From contig NZ_JH393259.1 in the NCBI RefSeq assembly GCF_000236035.1, positions 198,752 to 262,751 of the forward strand: a stretch of 64,000 nt of DNA. The letters are read 5' to 3'. Shown here piece by piece: positions 2,313 through 10,916 of this stretch (within the stretch, counting starts at the first letter, position 1; the number at the start of each line of letters is the position of its first letter). Source of the DNA: Vreelandella boliviensis LC1. GTDB taxonomy: Bacteria; Pseudomonadota; Gammaproteobacteria; Pseudomonadales; Halomonadaceae. The notes under the pieces were generated by a model. That model had not been told where the DNA came from. It saw only the letters and a list, made by a program, of their open reading frames with translations, and ran no database searches. The translations under genes and the position numbers were made by a program.

Positions 2313-2759
2313 CTAAGTGCTGACGGTAGGAATGCGCATAAGTTGCGCCAGTTGAGATTGTTGATTGCCCAACAGGTCGGCCAATGTATAGCGGTCAAGC
2401 ACCTCCAGAAACGCTGACAGTGCTTCGTTTAGAATGGGTTGGAGACGGCAAGAGGGCGTGATGATGCAGTTGTTATCGCTATGGAAACACTCCACTAATT
2501 CCATGCCATGTTCCATTTCGCGCACGAGTTTACCCAGCACGATAGTCGCAGGGTCGCGTGTAAGCAATAAGCCACCATTCTTGCCCCGGATAGCGGTCAC
2601 GTAGTGCTTCTGACTAAGCTCTTGAACGACTTTCATCAGATGATTACGTGAGATATCAAAGGTTTCTGCGATCTCATTGATGGTAGAACGCTCTTCTCCT
2701 TTTACCGCAAGAAAGATCAATACGCGTATTGAATAATCGGTGAATCGGGTGAGATGCAT
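2313..2759 (-). CDS. nsrR: Rrf2-family NO-sensing repressor NsrR
   Basis: A 148-aa Rrf2 winged-helix protein. The N-terminus MHLTRFTDYSIRVLIFLAV and the recognition region DISRNHLMKVVQELS are typical of NsrR. Three cysteines in VECFHSDNNCIITPSC (about residues 90-106) match the [Fe-S] ligand spacing of NsrR rather than IscR. The family binds DNA with an intact cluster and lets go after NO damages the cluster. Two candidate operators lie at 794-816 and 931-953, in front of hmp and nnrS. No clear operator was seen upstream of nsrR itself, so autoregulation is not supported by sequence. Confidence 0.92.
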   Translation of the reverse strand: MHLTRFTDYSIRVLIFLAVKGEERSTINEIAETFDISRNHLMKVVQELSQKHYVTAIRGKNGGLLLTRDPATIVLGKLVREMEHGMELVECFHSDNNCIITPSCRLQPILNEALSAFLEVLDRYTLADLLGNQQSQLAQLMRIPTVST

Positions 2760-2877
2760 GGAGTGCGCTGTGCTCCGATGGTAACCAGGCTATAAAACAA
2801 GTATGTTGTATGAACGTTCAGTCAGATGCAATCAGAACATAGGCGCATAATGCTGACCTGGATCTAAAAGGGAAGAG

Positions 2878-3627
2878 TTAGTGTCGTAGCTCAAGCCGGC
2901 TAAAATGTGGTTCCAAGCGCTTGACCAACGCATTTAATCGAGCGGTAGAGGGTGCATGGGTAACAGGCTGAGCATGGCTGGCGTCAAGGCACTGCTCGCT
3001 GCGAGCCACCTGCAGCGCGTAGTGACGTACGCCGCAGTCGGCAAGGGTCAGTGCCAGTCGTTCCACATCGGCAAGCTGAAAATCTTTCCAGTGGATGGTG
3101 GTGCGGCACTCGAAATTGAGTCCGCTGTCGAGCAGAATTCCCAAGCTACGGGCGTGCCGTTGCCAGATGCCGGAACGGCCGCATATGCGGTCAAACTCTT
3201 GGCCTCGTCCTTTTACATCCAGCCCCACCCAGTCAAGGTGCGGTAATAGCTGGGTGAGACGGTCAGGATAAGGGCCGGCAGTATGCAGCCCTACCTTAAA
3301 ACCCAGTGCTTTCACTTCCTTTGCCGCAGCAGGCAAACCGGCGTTCACGGTTGGCTCACCGCCGCTGAAAACGACGGCTTCCAACAAACCTCGCCGAGTG
3401 CTCAGAAATTCCAGTATTGCTTGCCACTCATGGGACTCGCCTCGCCGTGTTGGGATCATGCTGGGGTTGTGGCAGTAGCCGCAGCGTAGCGGGCACCCTT
3501 GTAGAAAAACAACACACGCCAGATGGTCGGGGTAGTCCAGGGTTGTCATGGGAACAAGCCCGGCAATGGGTAGCCGAACCGAGTTGGGTTGAGCGCTTGT
3601 GTCATCAAGTCCCGTGAGAATAGTCAT
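2878..3627 (-). CDS. nrdG: Anaerobic ribonucleotide reductase activating enzyme (radical SAM)
   Basis: A 249-aa radical SAM enzyme. The cluster motif is C45-PLR-C49-GY-C52, a standard CxxxCxxC, and the SAM-binding FSGGEPT follows at about residue 90. NrdG-type activases use SAM and an electron to place a glycyl radical on class III ribonucleotide reductase. It is longer than E. coli NrdG (154 aa) and belongs to the longer form found in pseudomonads and relatives. It is the last gene of the nrdD - glycyl protein - nrdG set. A perfect 10-bp hairpin stands between the glycyl-protein stop and this start, with the AAGGGG ribosome site directly after the hairpin. Confidence 0.92.
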   Translation of the reverse strand: MTILTGLDDTSAQPNSVRLPIAGLVPMTTLDYPDHLACVVFLQGCPLRCGYCHNPSMIPTRRGESHEWQAILEFLSTRRGLLEAVVFSGGEPTVNAGLPAAAKEVKALGFKVGLHTAGPYPDRLTQLLPHLDWVGLDVKGRGQEFDRICGRSGIWQRHARSLGILLDSGLNFECRTTIHWKDFQLADVERLALTLADCGVRHYALQVARSEQCLDASHAQPVTHAPSTARLNALVKRLEPHFSRLELRH

Positions 3628-3641
3628 TGTGATAACCCCTT

Positions 3642-3669
3642 ACTGGGTGCCGGTCGTCAGGCACCCAGT
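3642..3669 (-). other. Perfect 10-bp hairpin between glycyl-radical ORF and nrdG
   Basis: Arms at 3642-3651 and 3660-3669 (ACTGGGTGCC and its complement) flank an 8-nt loop. No T-run follows on the minus strand. Instead the ribosome site AAGGGG and the nrdG start follow within 14 nt. It may act as an mRNA processing or stability element, or partly reduce readthrough into nrdG. Confidence 0.6.
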
Positions 3670-3695
3670 GGTCGTGAAATAAAGATAAGGGCTAG

Positions 3696-3860
3696 CTACC
3701 GAGAGGCGGCGTCTTCAGTAAAATGTCGGCGTTCCTGATGTTCGGCACGCTTACCAATATTGAACTGGCTTACCGGCCGGTGGTAACCCATGACCCGGGT
3801 CCAGACTTCGCAGCGCTGGCGCTGTTCAGTGGGCAAGCTAGCGTATCGAGTGGTTTGCAT
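3696..3860 (-). CDS. Stand-alone glycyl-radical domain of class III ribonucleotide reductase
   Basis: A 54-aa protein starting MQTTRYASLP. Residues 17-40 contain CEVWTRVMGYHRPVSQFN and then IGKRAEHQER, which is the C-terminal glycyl-radical loop that class III reductases normally carry at the end of NrdD; Gly25 in RVMGY is the expected radical site. It has its own ribosome site (AAGGAA, about 8 nt before ATG) and lies 43 nt after the nrdD stop in a different frame. NrdD upstream ends right after its zinc motif and lacks this loop. I infer that the two chains assemble into one enzyme, in the way GrcA (YfiD) can supply a glycyl loop to pyruvate formate-lyase. A longer in-frame reading up to 3998 overlaps nrdD and looks like a shadow. 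Confidence 0.85.
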   Translation of the reverse strand: MQTTRYASLPTEQRQRCEVWTRVMGYHRPVSQFNIGKRAEHQERRHFTEDAASR

Positions 3861-3903
3861 TAGAAAGTTCCTTAAACGTGTTGATAAGAGTGAGGCAAAT
3901 GCC

Positions 3904-5646
3904 TCATGCCGTGGCGGCGTCGGTTGCGCCCGCCGTTTGTGCCCATAGTGCTTCATCGCACTTGGGGCAGAACTCATGTTCACCGGACAGGTAGCCATGT
4001 ACCGGGCAGATCGAAAAAGTGGGGGTCACGGTGAGGTAGGGTAAACGAAAGTGAGAGAGCGCCGTTTTTACCAGTTTGCGACAGGCGACGGCCGACGTGA
4101 TCCGCTCACGCATATAAAGATGCAGCACCGTGCCGCCGGTATAGCGCGTCTGTAAGGGATCCTGGTGACTCAGTGCCTCAAAAGGGTCATCGGTATGGCC
4201 AACCGGTAATTGACTGGAGTTGGTGTAATAGGGCGCATCTGGCGTGCCAGCCTGTAGAATGTCAGGAAAACGCGCCAGATCCTCCCTCGCAAAACGGTGA
4301 GTCGTGCCCTCCGCCGGTGTGGCTTCGAGGTTATACATATGGCCGGTCTGTTCCTGAAATTCACGCATCCGCTTACGGACGTGATCAAGCAGATCAAGCC
4401 CCAGCTGTAGCCCTTGTGGGTCGGCGATGTCGAAGCGATCCTCGCTGAAGTTGCGCACCATTTCGTTGAGCCCATTCACACCCAGGGTGGAGAAATGATT
4501 GCGTAGCGTGCCCAAATAGCGCTGGGTGAAGGGGTAAAGCCCCTGATCCATTAGTTGCTGAATGCATTCGCGCTTGAGCTCGAGGCTATCGCGCCCGAGT
4601 CGCAGCAGGCGATCCAGCTCTCTGAACAGCCCGGCTCGGTCGCCGGCAAAGCGGTAGCCCAACCGGGCGCAGTTAATCGTCACTACCCCCAGTGAGCCGG
4701 TTTGCTCAGCGCTGCCGAACAGCCCGTTGCCGCGCTTGAGCAGTTCACTCAAATCAAGTTGTAGGCGACAGCACATGGAGCGCACCATGTGGGGTTCCAG
4801 ATCCGAATTTAGAAAGTTCTGAAAGTAGGGCAGGCCGTACTTGGCGGTCAGTGCGAAGAGCCGCTCGGCGTTGTCGCTTTCCCAGTCGAAATCATGGGTG
4901 ATGTTGTAGGTGGGTATAGGGAAGGTAAACACCCGCCCATGGCGGTCCCCGGCCTCCATGACTTCCAGGTAGGCGCGGTTGATTAAATCCATCTCAACCT
5001 GCAGCTCACCGTAGCTGATCGGCTGCTCCTCGCCGCCGATAACCGGTACCTGCTGGCGCAGGTCGTCGGGGCAGACCCAGTCAAACGTCAGGTTGGTGAA
5101 GGGGGTCTGACTACCCCAGCGCGACGGCACATTGAGGTTGTAAATAAACTCCTGCAGCATCTGCTTGACTTGCGTGTAGGTGAGCCCGTCCTTGCGCACG
5201 TAGGGTGCCAAATAGGTATCAAAAGAGCTAAAGGCTTGTGCCCCAGCCCACTCGTTCTGCAAGGTGCCAAGAAAGTTAACCATCTGCCCCAAAGCACTGG
5301 AAAGGTGGCGGGGTGGATGGCTTTCGGCACGCCCTGGCACCCCATTGAATCCTTCATGCAGCAAAGTGCGCAGCGACCAGCCAGCGCAATAGCCGCACAA
5401 CATATCCAGGTCGTGAATATGCAAATCACCTTCTCGGTGGGCTTCACCCACGGCGTGCGGGTAAATCTCATCGAGCCAGTAGTTGGCGATCAACTTGCCC
5501 GAGACATTGAGGATCAAACCGCCCAATGAATAGCCCTGGTTGGCATTGGCATGAACACGCCAGTCTGCGCGTTGGAGGTACTCGTTGACCGTCGAGGCGA
5601 CATCGATCTGGCGCTTCTGGTGAGGGTGGCTTACGGGGGTATTCAT
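3904..5646 (-). CDS. nrdD: Anaerobic ribonucleoside-triphosphate reductase large chain lacking the glycyl loop
   Basis: A 580-aa protein of the NrdD family, which reduces ribonucleoside triphosphates to deoxyribonucleotides without oxygen. Diagnostic segments are YSLGGLILNVSGK, GDLHIHDLDMLCGYC and, near the end, a Cys/His metal site (CPVH at 547 and CPKC at 560-563). In complete NrdD proteins the glycyl-radical loop follows within about 20 residues of this zinc site; here the chain ends at 580 without it, and the loop is encoded by the next gene. The ATG at 5646 has a GGGAGAG ribosome site; an upstream in-frame start at 5694 lacks one. The spacing to the next gene (43 nt with its own ribosome site) argues against a simple frameshift. 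Confidence 0.93.
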   Translation of the reverse strand: MNTPVSHPHQKRQIDVASTVNEYLQRADWRVHANANQGYSLGGLILNVSGKLIANYWLDEIYPHAVGEAHREGDLHIHDLDMLCGYCAGWSLRTLLHEGFNGVPGRAESHPPRHLSSALGQMVNFLGTLQNEWAGAQAFSSFDTYLAPYVRKDGLTYTQVKQMLQEFIYNLNVPSRWGSQTPFTNLTFDWVCPDDLRQQVPVIGGEEQPISYGELQVEMDLINRAYLEVMEAGDRHGRVFTFPIPTYNITHDFDWESDNAERLFALTAKYGLPYFQNFLNSDLEPHMVRSMCCRLQLDLSELLKRGNGLFGSAEQTGSLGVVTINCARLGYRFAGDRAGLFRELDRLLRLGRDSLELKRECIQQLMDQGLYPFTQRYLGTLRNHFSTLGVNGLNEMVRNFSEDRFDIADPQGLQLGLDLLDHVRKRMREFQEQTGHMYNLEATPAEGTTHRFAREDLARFPDILQAGTPDAPYYTNSSQLPVGHTDDPFEALSHQDPLQTRYTGGTVLHLYMRERITSAVACRKLVKTALSHFRLPYLTVTPTFSICPVHGYLSGEHEFCPKCDEALWAQTAGATDAATA

Positions 5647-5733
5647 AACGCTCTCCCTATATGTGCTATGTTCTTTAATATTTTTGCACAACATGTGGTA
5701 AGGAGAGGCTAGTGGTTTTAGCCTGAAAGAAAA

Positions 5734-5747
5734 GTGATTCAGGTCAA
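5734..5747. promoter_or_regulatory. FNR/ANR-like box upstream of nrdD
   Basis: GTGAT-TCAG-GTCAA fits the FNR/ANR pattern TTGAT-N4-ATCAA with two mismatches, one in each arm. It is about 90 bp before the nrdD start, a usual distance for an activator site. Anaerobic control of class III reductase by FNR-type regulators is well known. Confidence 0.55.
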
Positions 5748-5834
5748 GAAAAGCACGGATGGGTGTCGTTGCTGGTTACGTCGGTATTTAGTCCAGCGGC
5801 TTTTGATAGGACGTTTCGACAGGAAAAGCCGCTT

Positions 5835-6389
5835 CTAGGAAGGCTGGGATAGCATATGACAACCGGAGACGTAGCAGGACTGCACACATAGGGCACACCC
5901 CTGGCAGTTTTCGATTGACACCTGAGGCAGTCCTGCGGAAGGCAAGGTGATGGCCTGGCTGGGGCACTCCTCTTGGCACAACGTGCAGGGCTCGCCATAA
6001 CTCAAGACGCAATTGTCGTTGAATACCGGAACGAGTCCGGTCATGGCCGGTAGTTCAGGAATGAGGGCGCGTGTCTCGCAGGCGGCGGTACACGCCAGGC
6101 ATAGGTCGCAGTGGTTGTGCTCCAGGTTCAGGCGCGGAAGACCTTGTTCCATACTGATGATCTGGTTGGAACAGGCTGTGGCACAGGCACCGCAGCCGCA
6201 GCATAACTGGACAAGGAGGGACTCCTCTTGAGCCTGGGGAGGACGGGGTATCTCGCGCTGCTGGCGAAGAGGCGGTGTCGCTGCGAACGATGTGGTGACC
6301 GGGCGCAGCAATCCCCGCAGCAGTTCCCGGCGGCTGAGACGGGTATGGTTGAGGCGGGCACTCAGATAACGTTCGTCGATACGGCTCAT
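5835..6389 (-). CDS. NapF-like 4Fe-4S ferredoxin at the end of the dms operon
   Basis: A 184-aa iron-sulfur protein with four cysteine groups: CCGCGACATAC, CDLCLACTAAC, CTLCQEEC and CQGCALCVQSC. The order and the basic N-terminus (LSRRELLRGLLRP) resemble NapF, a cytoplasmic ferredoxin that helps mature periplasmic molybdoenzymes. The start at 6389 overlaps the stop of the upstream chaperone gene in an ATGA, so translation is probably coupled. An in-frame ATG 16 codons earlier would extend deep into the chaperone gene and is less likely. Placed after dmsABC and a DmsD-type chaperone, it is probably an accessory factor for DMSO reductase; no nap genes are present. Confidence 0.8.
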   Translation of the reverse strand: MSRIDERYLSARLNHTRLSRRELLRGLLRPVTTSFAATPPLRQQREIPRPPQAQEESLLVQLCCGCGACATACSNQIISMEQGLPRLNLEHNHCDLCLACTAACETRALIPELPAMTGLVPVFNDNCVLSYGEPCTLCQEECPSQAITLPSAGLPQVSIENCQGCALCVQSCYVSGCHMLSQPS

Positions 6390-6994
6390 CGGTAGAGTCT
6401 CAATTGGTGCGGGGTGATGCTCCGCTCCATTTGCCACTGGCCAAGGGTTGCCGCGCCCAGCCGGGCCAGGGCGCGGTAGAAGGGGTGGGGGGTGTGTTCC
6501 TCCAGCTGCTCAAGGTAACGCCAGCTCCAGGGCAAGAGAAACTCGCCGAGCAGCCGGTCGACACCGGCCTCGCGTCCTTCCAACGCCAACTGGCCGAGGA
6601 GTAGTAGCAGAAGGCCGAAGTGGTCGAGCGGCTCGCGCTGGGTGGTCGCCAGGGACACTCCCTCCTCGTGCTCCAGAAAGCGCTTGAGTGCCTGGTGAGA
6701 GTCGCCGAAGACCACTTGCTCAGGGTCGAGGTAGACCGAGCCCCAAGGCGGTGCAGCGAGGGCATCCGGACCGACGAACAACTGCTGGTAGGCGTCTGCT
6801 AGCAGTGGTTCTTGACGTGCCTCACTCAGTGTCACGAGCAGCGGAGTTCCCGCTGCGTAGGGCCATGCCTCCGCCAGGCTGCCGTCATCAATATACCGGT
6901 CAAGCTGTTCCAGTGCCGGTGCGCCGGGCGGATAGTAGAACCAAGCGCCAAGCAAGCGGGCGGAGTGGGCGAGTGGTTGCATGGAGTGCTTCAC
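6386..6994 (-). CDS. DmsD/TorD-family molybdoenzyme chaperone
   Basis: A 202-aa helical protein of the TorD/DmsD family. The marker segment YQQLFVGPDALAAPPWGSVYLD, with PWGS and a following acidic residue, is the family signature. These chaperones bind the Tat signal of the catalytic subunit and hold it until cofactor is inserted. The start is GTG at 6994, overlapping the dmsC stop as GTGA; an ATG at codon 5 (6982) is a possible alternative. It sits between dmsC and the NapF-like gene with overlaps on both sides, so all belong to one transcript with dmsA as the likely client. Confidence 0.85.
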   Translation of the reverse strand: MKHSMQPLAHSARLLGAWFYYPPGAPALEQLDRYIDDGSLAEAWPYAAGTPLLVTLSEARQEPLLADAYQQLFVGPDALAAPPWGSVYLDPEQVVFGDSHQALKRFLEHEEGVSLATTQREPLDHFGLLLLLLGQLALEGREAGVDRLLGEFLLPWSWRYLEQLEEHTPHPFYRALARLGAATLGQWQMERSITPHQLRLYR

Positions 6995-7833
6995 AGCCCG
7001 GCAGTCATGTGCAGATTGTAGAAGAGATTACGACCCAGCATTTCCGCCGCTAGCAGCAGCACGAAGCTGGCGCACAACACCAGCGGCTGATGGCGCATGC
7101 TACGCAGGGCAAACAACCACAACGCTAGTACGGCGGCCAGCAACGCCAACCGAATAATCAATAGGCTCTGGTAGTGGGGTACCAAGTCGATCGCCGATTG
7201 GATGGCGCTTTGGATGCCCGCCAGACTCATGGCGTGGGCCACGCTGGAGCCCAGTGCCACCACTATCGCCAGGGCACCCAGCCATGGTAGTAGGCGTGCC
7301 ATTAGGCGGTATCCCTGGCCGCTCAAATTAAGCAGTAACTGGGCGAGTAAGGCGCCTCCCATGACGCTGGTCAGGAAAAAGCCCAGCGGAGTGAAGGGGG
7401 TATTCCAGGTTGGTACAGTGGGAATCATGTAGACATGGATGGTCGCATACATGAAGGCAACCCCCAGCAGCATGGCAATGCCGAGCAGGACCTTGCGCAG
7501 CAGTGGTGAGACCTTGTCGAGCAGAGTCAACAGCCAGAACAACCCACCGAGAGCAAAGAAAAGGCTGCCCAAGAAGATTTCGTTGCTCAACCAGGAACCA
7601 CCTAGGCGCAACAAGGCATTAGGCGCGCGCAGCGGTGAACCCAGATGGAGAGTGGAAGCAGCGAAGGCCACACCCATCAGAACCCAGATGATTAGCATCG
7701 GACGATTCAGGCGGCGCAACGACGCCTCCTCCAGCCGCCCCGTGAGTATCAGCGCCCCGAGCAGAATGAAAGCGCCCACGGCACATTGTGCCAGAACGGT
7801 GAAAACCACTAAGGGAAATTCGTGCCAGCCCAT
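6991..7833 (-). CDS. dmsC: DMSO reductase membrane anchor DmsC
   Basis: A 280-aa membrane protein with about eight hydrophobic segments. The N-terminus MGWHEFPLVVFTVLAQCAVG matches the DmsC family. DmsC anchors DmsAB in the inner membrane and oxidises menaquinol or another quinol. The ATG at 7833 has a very strong ribosome site (AAGGAGGTG) and begins 1 nt after the dmsB stop; an earlier in-frame ATG at 7890 would lie inside dmsB. Downstream it overlaps the chaperone gene by 4 bp. Confidence 0.9.
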   Translation of the reverse strand: MGWHEFPLVVFTVLAQCAVGAFILLGALILTGRLEEASLRRLNRPMLIIWVLMGVAFAASTLHLGSPLRAPNALLRLGGSWLSNEIFLGSLFFALGGLFWLLTLLDKVSPLLRKVLLGIAMLLGVAFMYATIHVYMIPTVPTWNTPFTPLGFFLTSVMGGALLAQLLLNLSGQGYRLMARLLPWLGALAIVVALGSSVAHAMSLAGIQSAIQSAIDLVPHYQSLLIIRLALLAAVLALWLFALRSMRHQPLVLCASFVLLLAAEMLGRNLFYNLHMTAGL

Positions 7834-7834
7834 G

Positions 7835-8452
7835 TCACACCTCCTTGGGATTGGCGAGGGAACCGGTGGTATCGCCCACCGGACGGGCATTGCGGTTTGG
7901 CTTGATCACGATGCTGGGGCCGGTCAAAGAAGCTGACGGAAGCGGCGCCACCTCGGCGAGGTTGCCGTAGCGTTCGTGTAGCTCCTCCATGGGGGCAAAA
8001 TCCAGCGCCCGCAGAGGGCAGGATTCTACGCAGACCGGCTTTAGCCCTTCGGCGACGCGTTCGTAGCAGCCATCGCACTTGGTCATGTGGCCTTTACGTG
8101 CGCTGTACTGAGGCGCGCCATAGGGGCAGGCCATCGCACAGGATTTACAGCCGATACAGGTGTCGGTATCCACTACGACCAAGCCATCCTCACTGCGTTT
8201 GTGCATGGCGCCGCTAGGGCAGACAGGTACGCAGGCCGGTGCGGCGCAGTGGTTGCAGGCGATCGACAGGTAATAGGAAAAGATCGACGGCTGCCAGGTG
8301 TCGCCGTCGGCCTGCCAGGAGCCCCCCGCATATTCGTAGATGCGCCGGTAGTTGATGTCGACATCGAGATCTTTGTAATCCTTGCAGGACAGCTGGCAGG
8401 TTTTGCAGCCGGTACACTTGCTGGAGTCTATGTAGAAACCATATTGCGTCAT
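7835..8452 (-). CDS. dmsB: DMSO reductase iron-sulfur subunit DmsB
   Basis: A 205-aa protein with four cysteine clusters for [4Fe-4S] centres: CTGCKTCQLSC near residue 13, CNHCAAPACVPVC, CIGCKSCAMAC and CDGCYERV...CVESC. The start MTQYGFYIDSSKCTGCK is the standard DmsB opening. It carries electrons from DmsC to the molybdenum site in DmsA. It lies 10 nt after dmsA in one operon. Confidence 0.95.
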   Translation of the reverse strand: MTQYGFYIDSSKCTGCKTCQLSCKDYKDLDVDINYRRIYEYAGGSWQADGDTWQPSIFSYYLSIACNHCAAPACVPVCPSGAMHKRSEDGLVVVDTDTCIGCKSCAMACPYGAPQYSARKGHMTKCDGCYERVAEGLKPVCVESCPLRALDFAPMEELHERYGNLAEVAPLPSASLTGPSIVIKPNRNARPVGDTTGSLANPKEV

Positions 8453-8462
8453 TATGCTCTCC

Positions 8463-10916
8463 TCAGGCCTTGTTCACTTCGACCAGGTTGGTATGCGAAG
8501 GATTGCCCTTGGCCAGCGGCGAGGGTCGTTGTGTGGTCAGCACGTTGATACTGCCGGCCTGATCCGTGCCATGGCGGTTAGGGGCGTACCAGGCACCCTC
8601 GGAGAGGGCAACCACGCCGGGCAGAATGCGTGGGGTTACCTTGGCGGCGATGTGTACCCGGCCACGGTCGTTGAATATTTCCACGCTGTCACCGTTAACG
8701 ATTCCCCTTGACTGGGCGTCGATGGGGTTGATCCACATCTCCTGGCGGACGGCGGCCTTGAGCAGTGCGACGTTGCCGTAGGTTGAGTGAGTACGCGACT
8801 TGCAATGAAAGCCGATTAATTGCAATGGATATCGCGCACGATCCGGTGAGTCCCATCCCTCGAAAGTGGAGGCGTGAATCGGCAACGGGTCGATGACATC
8901 ACTCTCCTCAAGCTCCCACTCGGCAGCGATTTTGGCCAGTGCCTCGGAGTAGATCTCGATCTTGCCGGAGGACGTGGTGAGCGGGTTTGCCTCTGGGTCG
9001 GCCCGGAAGTCGCGGTAGGCAACGAAGAAACCATTGGGATTCTGGCGCTTGTAGATGCCCATTTCACGGAACGCTTCAAAATCGGGCAGGTCGGGGTCAC
9101 GCCGACGGTTCTGTGCCAGCAGGTGACGCAGCCACTCCTCCTGGGTGCGGCCTTCGGTGAAGGCTTCGCCGACCCCCATGCGCGCGGCGATTTCACTGCA
9201 CATTTCGTAAACCGACTTGCACTCGAACAACGGCTCGATGACCTGGTCAGCGAAGATCAGGTAGTTCATGTTGCCAGCGTTGGCATCCATGGCGAAGTCC
9301 ATCTGCTCGGAGGTGGTTAAGTCGGGCAGCAGGAGGTCGGCGTAGCGTGCCGATGAGGTCATGTGGTTGTCGATCACCACGATCATTTCGCATAGATCTT
9401 CATCGGAGAGGATCTCGTGGGTGCGGTTGATCTCGGAGTGCTGGTTCACCAGGCAGTTGCTGGCATAGTTCCAGATGAACTTGATCGGTACGTCGAGCTT
9501 GTCCTTGCCGCGTACTCCGTCGCGGGTGGCGGTCATCTCGGGGCCACGGGCAATGGCATCGGTCCAGGTGAACATTGAGATGCTGGTATCGACAGGGTTT
9601 TCCAGGGTGGGAAAACGCTCGAAGGGAATGGAATAACCGCCCTCGCGGGCACCGCTGTTACCGCCATTGATGCCGACATTGCCGGTGAGAATGGCCAGCA
9701 TGGCGATGGCGCGTGATATCAACTCACCGTTGGCGTGACGCTGCGGCCCCCAGCCCTGAACGATGTAGCACGGTTTGGTCGAACCGATCTCCCGGGCGAG
9801 CTGAACGATACGCCGGGAGGGGATGCCGGTGATGCGTGAGGCCCACGCAGGTGTCTTGGCGATACCATCGGGCCCGTCACCGAGAATATACGCCTTGTAG
9901 TGACCGTTGGCCGGAGCGCCTTCCGGCAGGGTGCGCTCGTCGTAGCCGACGCAGTAGCGATCCAGGAACGGCTGGTCAACCAGGTTCTCGCTGATCAGTA
10001 CATGGGCCAGACCGGCCACCAGGGCGGCGTCGGTACCCGGGCGGATGGGGACCCATTCGTCCTCGCGGCCGCCGGCGGTGTCGCTATAGCGCGGGTCGAT
10101 GACGATCATCCGTGCATCCGAGCGTTGGCGGGCTTCCTCGAGGTGGTAGACGATTCCACCGCCACTCATGCGTGTCTCGGCGGGGTTGTTGCCGAACATT
10201 ACCAGCAGGCGAGTGTTGGCGATGTCGGAGACGCTATTGCCCGCTGCCCAGCCACCGTAGGTGTAGTTGAGCCCGGCGGCAATCTGCGCGGTGCTGTAGT
10301 CGCCATAGTGGTTGAGGTAGCCGCCGCAGAGATTCATCAAGCGCGCCACCAGGGATGAAGCGGGTGGCCAGGACTTGGTCACGGTACCCCCCAGGGTGCC
10401 GGTACCGTAATTAAGATAGACGGCCTCATTGCCGTATTCGGCGATAATACGCTTGAGGTTGTCGGCGAGCAGCTGATAGGCCTCGTCCCAACTGATGCGG
10501 GCGAACTTGCCCTCGCCACGGGCGCCGACACGCTTCATGGGGTACTTCAGGCGGTCGGGGTTATAGACGCGACGGCGCATCGAACGACCGCGTAAGCACG
10601 CGCGGACCTGGTGGTTGCCATACTCATCAAGCCCGGTATTGTCAGTCTCCACCCAGGTGATCTCGCCGTCGCGCACATGCATGCGCAAGGGACAGCGGCT
10701 GCCGCAGTTGACCGTACAGGCGCTCCATACTACGCGCTCCTCTGCGGCAGTCGCCGAAGCCGTCTGGGCTGAAGCCCCGGTAGATACGAAGGGTAGTGGG
10801 ATCGAACCTGCTGCCAGCGCCAGGGTACCGGCAGAGCCGGTCTTCAATACGTCCCTGCGGCTAATATCCAGATTGAAAGCCTTGTGGAAGAGGCTATTTG
10901 AAGACTCGTTTTCCAT
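8463..10916 (-). CDS. dmsA: DMSO reductase catalytic subunit DmsA (Mo-bisMGD, Tat-exported)
   Basis: An 817-aa molybdopterin oxidoreductase. The N-terminus has a twin-arginine motif (SRRDVLKTG, Arg20-Arg21) and a hydrophobic stretch ending ASAQTA. The FS0 cluster ligands are C67, C71, C75 and C107. The segment NHYGDYSTAQ carries the serine that ligates Mo in DmsA. The enzyme reduces DMSO, and in the family also other S- and N-oxides, in the periplasm during anaerobic growth; the real substrate here is not proven. It is first in the dmsABC-chaperone-ferredoxin operon. An FNR-like box lies about 60 bp upstream. Confidence 0.93.
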   Translation of the reverse strand: MENESSNSLFHKAFNLDISRRDVLKTGSAGTLALAAGSIPLPFVSTGASAQTASATAAEERVVWSACTVNCGSRCPLRMHVRDGEITWVETDNTGLDEYGNHQVRACLRGRSMRRRVYNPDRLKYPMKRVGARGEGKFARISWDEAYQLLADNLKRIIAEYGNEAVYLNYGTGTLGGTVTKSWPPASSLVARLMNLCGGYLNHYGDYSTAQIAAGLNYTYGGWAAGNSVSDIANTRLLVMFGNNPAETRMSGGGIVYHLEEARQRSDARMIVIDPRYSDTAGGREDEWVPIRPGTDAALVAGLAHVLISENLVDQPFLDRYCVGYDERTLPEGAPANGHYKAYILGDGPDGIAKTPAWASRITGIPSRRIVQLAREIGSTKPCYIVQGWGPQRHANGELISRAIAMLAILTGNVGINGGNSGAREGGYSIPFERFPTLENPVDTSISMFTWTDAIARGPEMTATRDGVRGKDKLDVPIKFIWNYASNCLVNQHSEINRTHEILSDEDLCEMIVVIDNHMTSSARYADLLLPDLTTSEQMDFAMDANAGNMNYLIFADQVIEPLFECKSVYEMCSEIAARMGVGEAFTEGRTQEEWLRHLLAQNRRRDPDLPDFEAFREMGIYKRQNPNGFFVAYRDFRADPEANPLTTSSGKIEIYSEALAKIAAEWELEESDVIDPLPIHASTFEGWDSPDRARYPLQLIGFHCKSRTHSTYGNVALLKAAVRQEMWINPIDAQSRGIVNGDSVEIFNDRGRVHIAAKVTPRILPGVVALSEGAWYAPNRHGTDQAGSINVLTTQRPSPLAKGNPSHTNLVEVNKA

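Follow-up and report, generated by a model that had tools for sequence, protein, structure and literature searches.

Locus organization and domain content

The 64,000-nucleotide stretch of Vreelandella boliviensis LC1 analysed in this study (hereafter the window; contig NZ_JH393259.1, positions 198,752 to 262,751) contains a class III ribonucleotide reductase (RNR) locus in which the NrdD protein is encoded as two chains. In minus-strand order, the gene for the large chain is followed by a gene for a chain of 54 amino acids (aa) that carries the glycyl-radical loop, and then by nrdG, the gene for the activase (Table 1). The large chain contains the NRDD catalytic domain (Pfam NRDD, profile positions 2-528, 571.7 bits), matches NCBIfam PRK08270 with 1013.8 bits, and stops 17 residues past a CPVH...CPKC motif, a site that, by analogy with known NrdD structures, probably binds zinc. 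The small chain matches positions 531-562 of the same profile (33.9 bits; curated cut-off 26.2), and no Pfam family besides NRDD, including the pyruvate formate-lyase (PFL)-type glycyl-radical domain, was found for it at E-values up to 1. Its loop reads RVMGYHRPVSQFN and includes Gly25. A search of the whole genome for NRDD returned the two window pieces and no further match, making the small chain the sole NrdD-type glycyl-radical loop found in the genome. While class III RNRs are defined in part by a glycyl-radical loop on the same chain as the catalytic barrel, here the loop is on the separate small chain; because every other class III feature tested fits, including a TIGR02495-type nrdG as the next gene downstream, the locus is called a split class III variant.

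The small gene starts at an ATG (3860-3858) preceded by AAGGAA at a distance of 7 nucleotides (nt), and lies 43 nt (3861-3903) beyond the large-chain gene in a frame offset by +1; the small frame stays open 5' of its own ATG. The first-pass annotation of this DNA had described an nrdD chain ending soon after its zinc site and a loop on a separate 54-aa gene with its own ribosome site, 43 nt away and in another frame, and all of these details were confirmed. The large chain also contains the sequence RSMCCR, and thereby the MCCR motif reported for subgroup NrdDh4 (PMC4493059; this and the other papers are cited from excerpts). The motif is followed by GLFGS, where the residue at the tip of the finger loop (Phe in NrdDh4) is uncertain by sequence, as the same excerpt also says.

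The radical site of T. maritima NrdD is Gly621, in a C-terminal loop that reaches into the barrel (PMC4493059). The small-chain residue aligned with it is Gly25, and the alignment to structure 4coi is weak when taken alone (E 0.49). A model of L093, a natural fused homologue, was built from 39 sequences with a mean predicted local distance difference test (pLDDT) score of 85.1, and its nearest structures are known NrdD proteins. The aligned range extends to residue 641 (of 646) of T. maritima 4u3e_B and to residue 637 of P. copri 8p2s_B; chains such as 8p27, by comparison, stop at 563; the excerpted eLife paper on P. copri reports that the NrdD radical domain is not visible with deoxyadenosine triphosphate.

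It is very likely that the two chains and the activase constitute a working class III RNR. One might instead regard the small protein as a GrcA-like spare part, used only after oxygen damage while an intact loop is encoded elsewhere, a view that draws on the domain logic of GrcA/YfiD and on viral contigs that carry the small chain alone, much as T4 carries Y06I (PMC8683613). However, the window's large chain has no loop and the genome has no other NRDD match; therefore, the small chain must serve even the undamaged enzyme, and an exclusively spare-part role is improbable.

Table 1. Features of the split class III RNR locus (positions in the window).
Feature	Position	Strand	Basis or description
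nrdD large chain, 580 aa	3904..5646	-	Catalytic barrel without glycyl-radical loop; NRDD and PRK08270 matches
Stand-alone glycyl-radical chain gene, 54 aa	3696..3860	-	NRDD profile match; kept in relatives
nrdG, radical S-adenosylmethionine (SAM) activase (NrdG2 type)	2878..3627	-	TIGR02495, 202.1 bits (cut-off 131.15)
AAGGAA, ribosome-binding site of small gene	3868..3873	-	Sequence
MCCR motif (M291-C292-C293-R294) of large chain	4765..4776	-	Sequence; invariant in alignments A1 and A3
Putative zinc-site motif (C547-P-V-H550 ... C560-P-K-C563) near large-chain C-terminus	3958..4008	-	Sequence and alignment A1
Gly25 codon of small chain, expected radical site	3786..3788	-	Aligns with Gly621 of T. 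maritima NrdD

Recurrence of the split in relatives

Of the 97 genomes searched with the large chain (the window's own and relatives), 20 gave a match. Altogether, 105 loci were classified: L001-L016 (L001 being the window), nine plasmid records (L025-L033) drawn from 70 with a match, and 80 named genome contigs, which rank highest among 514 confirmed candidates and are thus biased towards relatives of the query. Fragments and distant matches (L017-L024) and a viral record (L034) were left out. Two of the 80 contigs, L106 and L108, resemble each other, and many of the 80 come from metagenome assemblies, for which the phylum name may be incorrect. A large chain without the loop, accompanied by a small gene with it, was found in 101 of the 105 loci, the window included, and the remaining four were fused (Acidiphilium L027, Actinomyces oris L029, Geoalkalibacter L031, whose end reads RVTGFYRP, and Maricaulis L093). 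The large chains of L002-L016 are 73-96% identical over near full length and also end soon after the zinc-site motif. When the window was compared with ten relatives, synonymous differences (8-19) exceeded non-synonymous differences (0-6) in every pair, across 39 codons that were chosen by motif, a choice that lowers the non-synonymous count.

The first-pass annotation had proposed a two-piece NrdD with a stand-alone glycyl-radical chain, had suggested looking in related genomes for nrdD with a separate small loop gene, and had held that fused NrdD in close relatives would speak against its proposal. The search recovered this arrangement at nearly all loci, relatives that have an intact nrdD also show the split, and species differ in the relative frame of the two genes; together with the lack of another NRDD match in the genome and the unlinked genes described below, these results support the proposal.

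Some observations weigh against a two-chain enzyme. By sequence, the small chain aligns only weakly with solved NrdD structures, and the fit of the loop was modelled in the natural fused homologue. The locus is also patchy in the genus, with a match in 12 of 61 same-genus genomes (the window's own included), among which G025 has only a fragment and G046 (86% complete) is broken in pieces. This patchiness and the broken relative would be expected of a decaying locus whose class III activity has been lost; however, both chains are conserved across genera, non-synonymous change is low and the loop motif is kept in thousands of clusters, leaving decay very unlikely.

Independence of the two genes

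The junction was surveyed in 103 split loci after removal of duplicates, fragments and sequences below 65% identity. The frame of the small gene relative to nrdD is +1 at 40 loci, +2 at 34 and identical at 29. The best start is ATG in all 103 loci, and a strong Shine-Dalgarno-like word precedes it in 102, compared to 8% of random positions, which had no choice of start candidate. The small gene overlaps nrdD in 15 loci, and the median gap is 32 nt. In G347, nrdD is approximately 9 kb from the small gene, with other genes in between, and the small gene immediately precedes a radical-SAM gene that was judged nrdG-like by eye. At this distance the two genes are therefore independent, and neither sequencing error, frameshift nor read-through can join them.

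A programmed frameshift or read-through of the stop codon, either of which would yield one chain, is compatible with the 65 of 103 loci in which the small reading frame runs open through the stop of nrdD. In the other 38, however, that frame does not open before this stop, and the occurrence of all three frames, the strong ribosome sites and the distance between the genes in G347 likewise make such a mechanism highly improbable. A sequencing error or recent frameshift in the source strain, which the +1 offset and the open frame upstream of the small ATG in the window might suggest, is scarcely credible given the same split in other genera and families, the variable frame relation, the start and ribosome site belonging to the small gene itself, and its separation from nrdD in G347.

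Distribution across bacteria and databases

Among 397 sampled Pseudomonadota genomes, 65 matched NRDD above the cut-off and 19 of these contained a split NrdD, 17 of the window's type and two (G331 and G397) of the PRK07111 type. Sequences were read for 14 of the 19, and the other five (G310, G334, G384, G423 and G463) were called from two separate matches. One relative, G412, is fused. The loop is encoded as a separate protein at Pseudomonas and Cupriavidus loci, and the pHG1 locus of C. necator H16 is split. For C. metallidurans, one paper, seen in excerpt, gives Rmet_5137 and Rmet_5139 as NrdDG; our guess is that Rmet_5138 is the small gene of this species. In the phylum of L110 (titled Geobacteraceae), 47 of 198 genomes matched, and the 30 loci listed comprise 7 split and 23 fused (L188 was assigned to the fused class by eye). 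For the phylum of L095 (titled Acidobacteria), 17 of 149 genomes matched, with 7 split loci, 9 fused and 1 broken (L212, given neither class). A profile search with seven small chains gave at least 8000 matches, with every scored candidate positive; the matches, of which 120 were listed, may include pieces of fused genes located on short contigs. A query with a single small chain from Pseudomonas gave 1652 matches, among which a 48-aa Pseudomonas aeruginosa protein is listed under the name oxidoreductase. In the databases the small chain is named nrdD, oxidoreductase or hypothetical. A split NrdD is not peculiar to the source strain and is usual in a large clade.

Individual loci showed further variation. 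In the broken relative G046 (L017, L021, L023, L024), the large-chain gene is in pieces and the small gene reads intact. The split large chain of L203 has apparently had its zinc-site cysteines replaced (ISPVSGY...YYDPN). In L189, L201, L204 and L213, the end of the large chain and the start of the small chain appear by eye to be charged, helix-like stretches, and these could pair as a coiled coil that docks both chains.

Evolutionary history

A FastTree phylogeny of 86 rows (83 kept from 141 when filtered at 84% identity, and three outgroup rows) requires 10 changes between the split and fused states. An IQ-TREE phylogeny of 62 rows, from which 21 more rows and the outgroup were taken out by hand, requires 9, and such counts alone give no direction of change. 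In the IQ-TREE phylogeny, the window belongs to a clade of 38 rows (33 split and 5 fused; support 100), while seven further split rows are found with 13 fused rows in another supported clade of 20. Placing all split rows and the main clade on one side of a branch was weakly rejected by the approximately unbiased (AU) test (p 0.032, log-likelihood lower by 79), and a clade of the main-clade split rows without the nested fused rows was also rejected (p 0.0185). Uniting the seven outer split rows as one clade was not rejected (p 0.41). All of these p values are soft, as the groups were defined with the tree already in view.

The two PRK07111-type splits most likely arose independently of the window's type, as they belong to another NrdD subclass; in G397, a 682-aa chain is followed by a 55-aa loop protein and then by an nrdG-like gene. 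It is most likely that the cut between barrel and loop arose more than once, with the number and direction of the changes not fixed by the trees. From their nesting, the fused members of the window's clade look like re-fusions. The fused L093 retains, by eye, stretches resembling the tail of the large chain and the head of the small chain.

Viral copies of the small chain

A scan of viral contigs identified 146 stretches with relatives of the small chain, and the best 80, several of them near-copies, were taken as loci L214-L293 (IMG/VR). In all 80, no relative of the window's large chain or NrdG was found near the small chain, within flanks of at most 4 kb per side and often less as contigs end. 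Forty-four of the 80 records were searched whole, and all 44 contained only the loop part of NRDD (41 above the cut-off); no NrdD body was found in any of them, with one further NRDD match of 15 bits in G876. Across 43 of these records (G853 left out), the search for NrdG gave a single match, of 18.5 bits, also in G876. No viral record is listed as 90% complete or more, so the absence of NrdD is unproven for any single virus, and the pattern is uniform. Terminase PF03237 is present in 10 of these viral records. Among ten proteins neighbouring viral copies, 8 matched PHROGs (DNA polymerase, helicase, tape measure or tail fibre) and 2 had no match. Some viral copies (e.g., L222, L223, L225, L250, L264 and L278) have what appears by eye to be a cysteine-rich N-terminal extension.

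The cultured-phage collection contained a single, distant match, in ANMV-1, a virus of uncultured archaea. The 38-kb record has no NRDD match other than this 144-aa stand-alone piece (L034:2686-3120), in which a CxxC pair and an RIVGYLRP loop are present. T4 carries Y06I, a spare part for PFL, and a 2021 paper on the E. coli spare part, in excerpt, considers spare parts for other glycyl-radical enzymes possible but undemonstrated (PMC8683613). The viral small chains fit that prediction for NrdD, and they may serve a role in phages.

Genomic context

Upstream of nrdD on the same strand (5835-10916) are genes for a ferredoxin-like protein, a Nitrate_red_del-type chaperone, a DmsC-type anchor, an iron-sulphur protein and a molybdopterin oxidoreductase, and an Rrf2 regulator and NnrS are found past nrdG; the surroundings look like an anaerobic-respiration cluster. 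An FNR/Anr-like site with two mismatches lies upstream of nrdD (5734-5747). Because the window contains 48 matches of this kind, this one included (approximately 20 expected), and no sigma-70-like promoter was found in 2700-6000, no regulatory claim is made.

Proposed mechanism and significance

We infer that the two chains form a complex, that NrdG acts on the small chain and that the assembly is active. The 580-aa chain would supply the barrel, the cysteines and the zinc site, while the 54-aa chain would thread its glycine loop into the barrel like the C-terminal loop of a one-piece NrdD. NrdG would then form the glycyl radical on the small chain, and this radical would start ribonucleoside triphosphate reduction in the large chain. 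Because the small chain is not covalently attached, a copy cleaved by oxygen could be swapped for a new one, and phages could supply their own. Such a role in exchange or repair after oxygen damage is made more plausible by the viral copies, through the parallel with Y06I of T4. It is possible, although we put this forward only tentatively, that the radical subunit is a consumable: bacteria at the oxic-anoxic edge may replace a chain of approximately 6 kDa rather than the whole NrdD, and many phages may carry this chain by itself, as a subunit-level auxiliary gene that allows host NrdD and NrdG to continue supplying deoxyribonucleoside triphosphates for phage DNA, the cut having arisen several times with some later re-fusions. 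If true, the split enzyme would provide a natural two-part system in which to take apart radical formation, docking and oxygen repair, a preparation of NrdD and NrdG from a split species would miss a needed subunit, and the viral genes would form a family with a testable role.

Comparison with known systems

The split NrdD is a widespread variant of the class III reductase for which no description was found in the literature searched, a scope outside which most subscription papers fall; published accounts place the class III radical within the C-terminal domain of NrdD itself (e.g., PMC4009431). The one-piece NrdDh enzymes, such as T. maritima NrdD (4coi/4u3e; PMC4493059), share the barrel, the cysteine pair (MCCR here), the zinc site, an RVxGY-like loop and an NrdG activase, but carry the glycine loop on the same chain, whereas it is a separate protein in the window. 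GrcA/YfiD of E. coli and Y06I of T4 are likewise small, separate glycyl-radical proteins for a larger glycyl-radical enzyme, and are also phage-borne (PMC8683613). However, GrcA, at approximately 14 kDa, replaces a loop that PFL normally has, while the window's 54-aa chain duplicates nothing in the loopless large chain and is the only loop, for NrdD. The split class II enzyme NrdJa/NrdJb of P. aeruginosa is also an RNR made from two consecutive genes (PMC4860495, PMC4009431), but it belongs to class II and has no glycyl radical. The PRK07111-type split of G331 and G397 has a large chain ending after a CxxC motif, a separate 55-aa loop protein and an adjacent nrdG-like gene, as in the window, but in another NrdD subclass.
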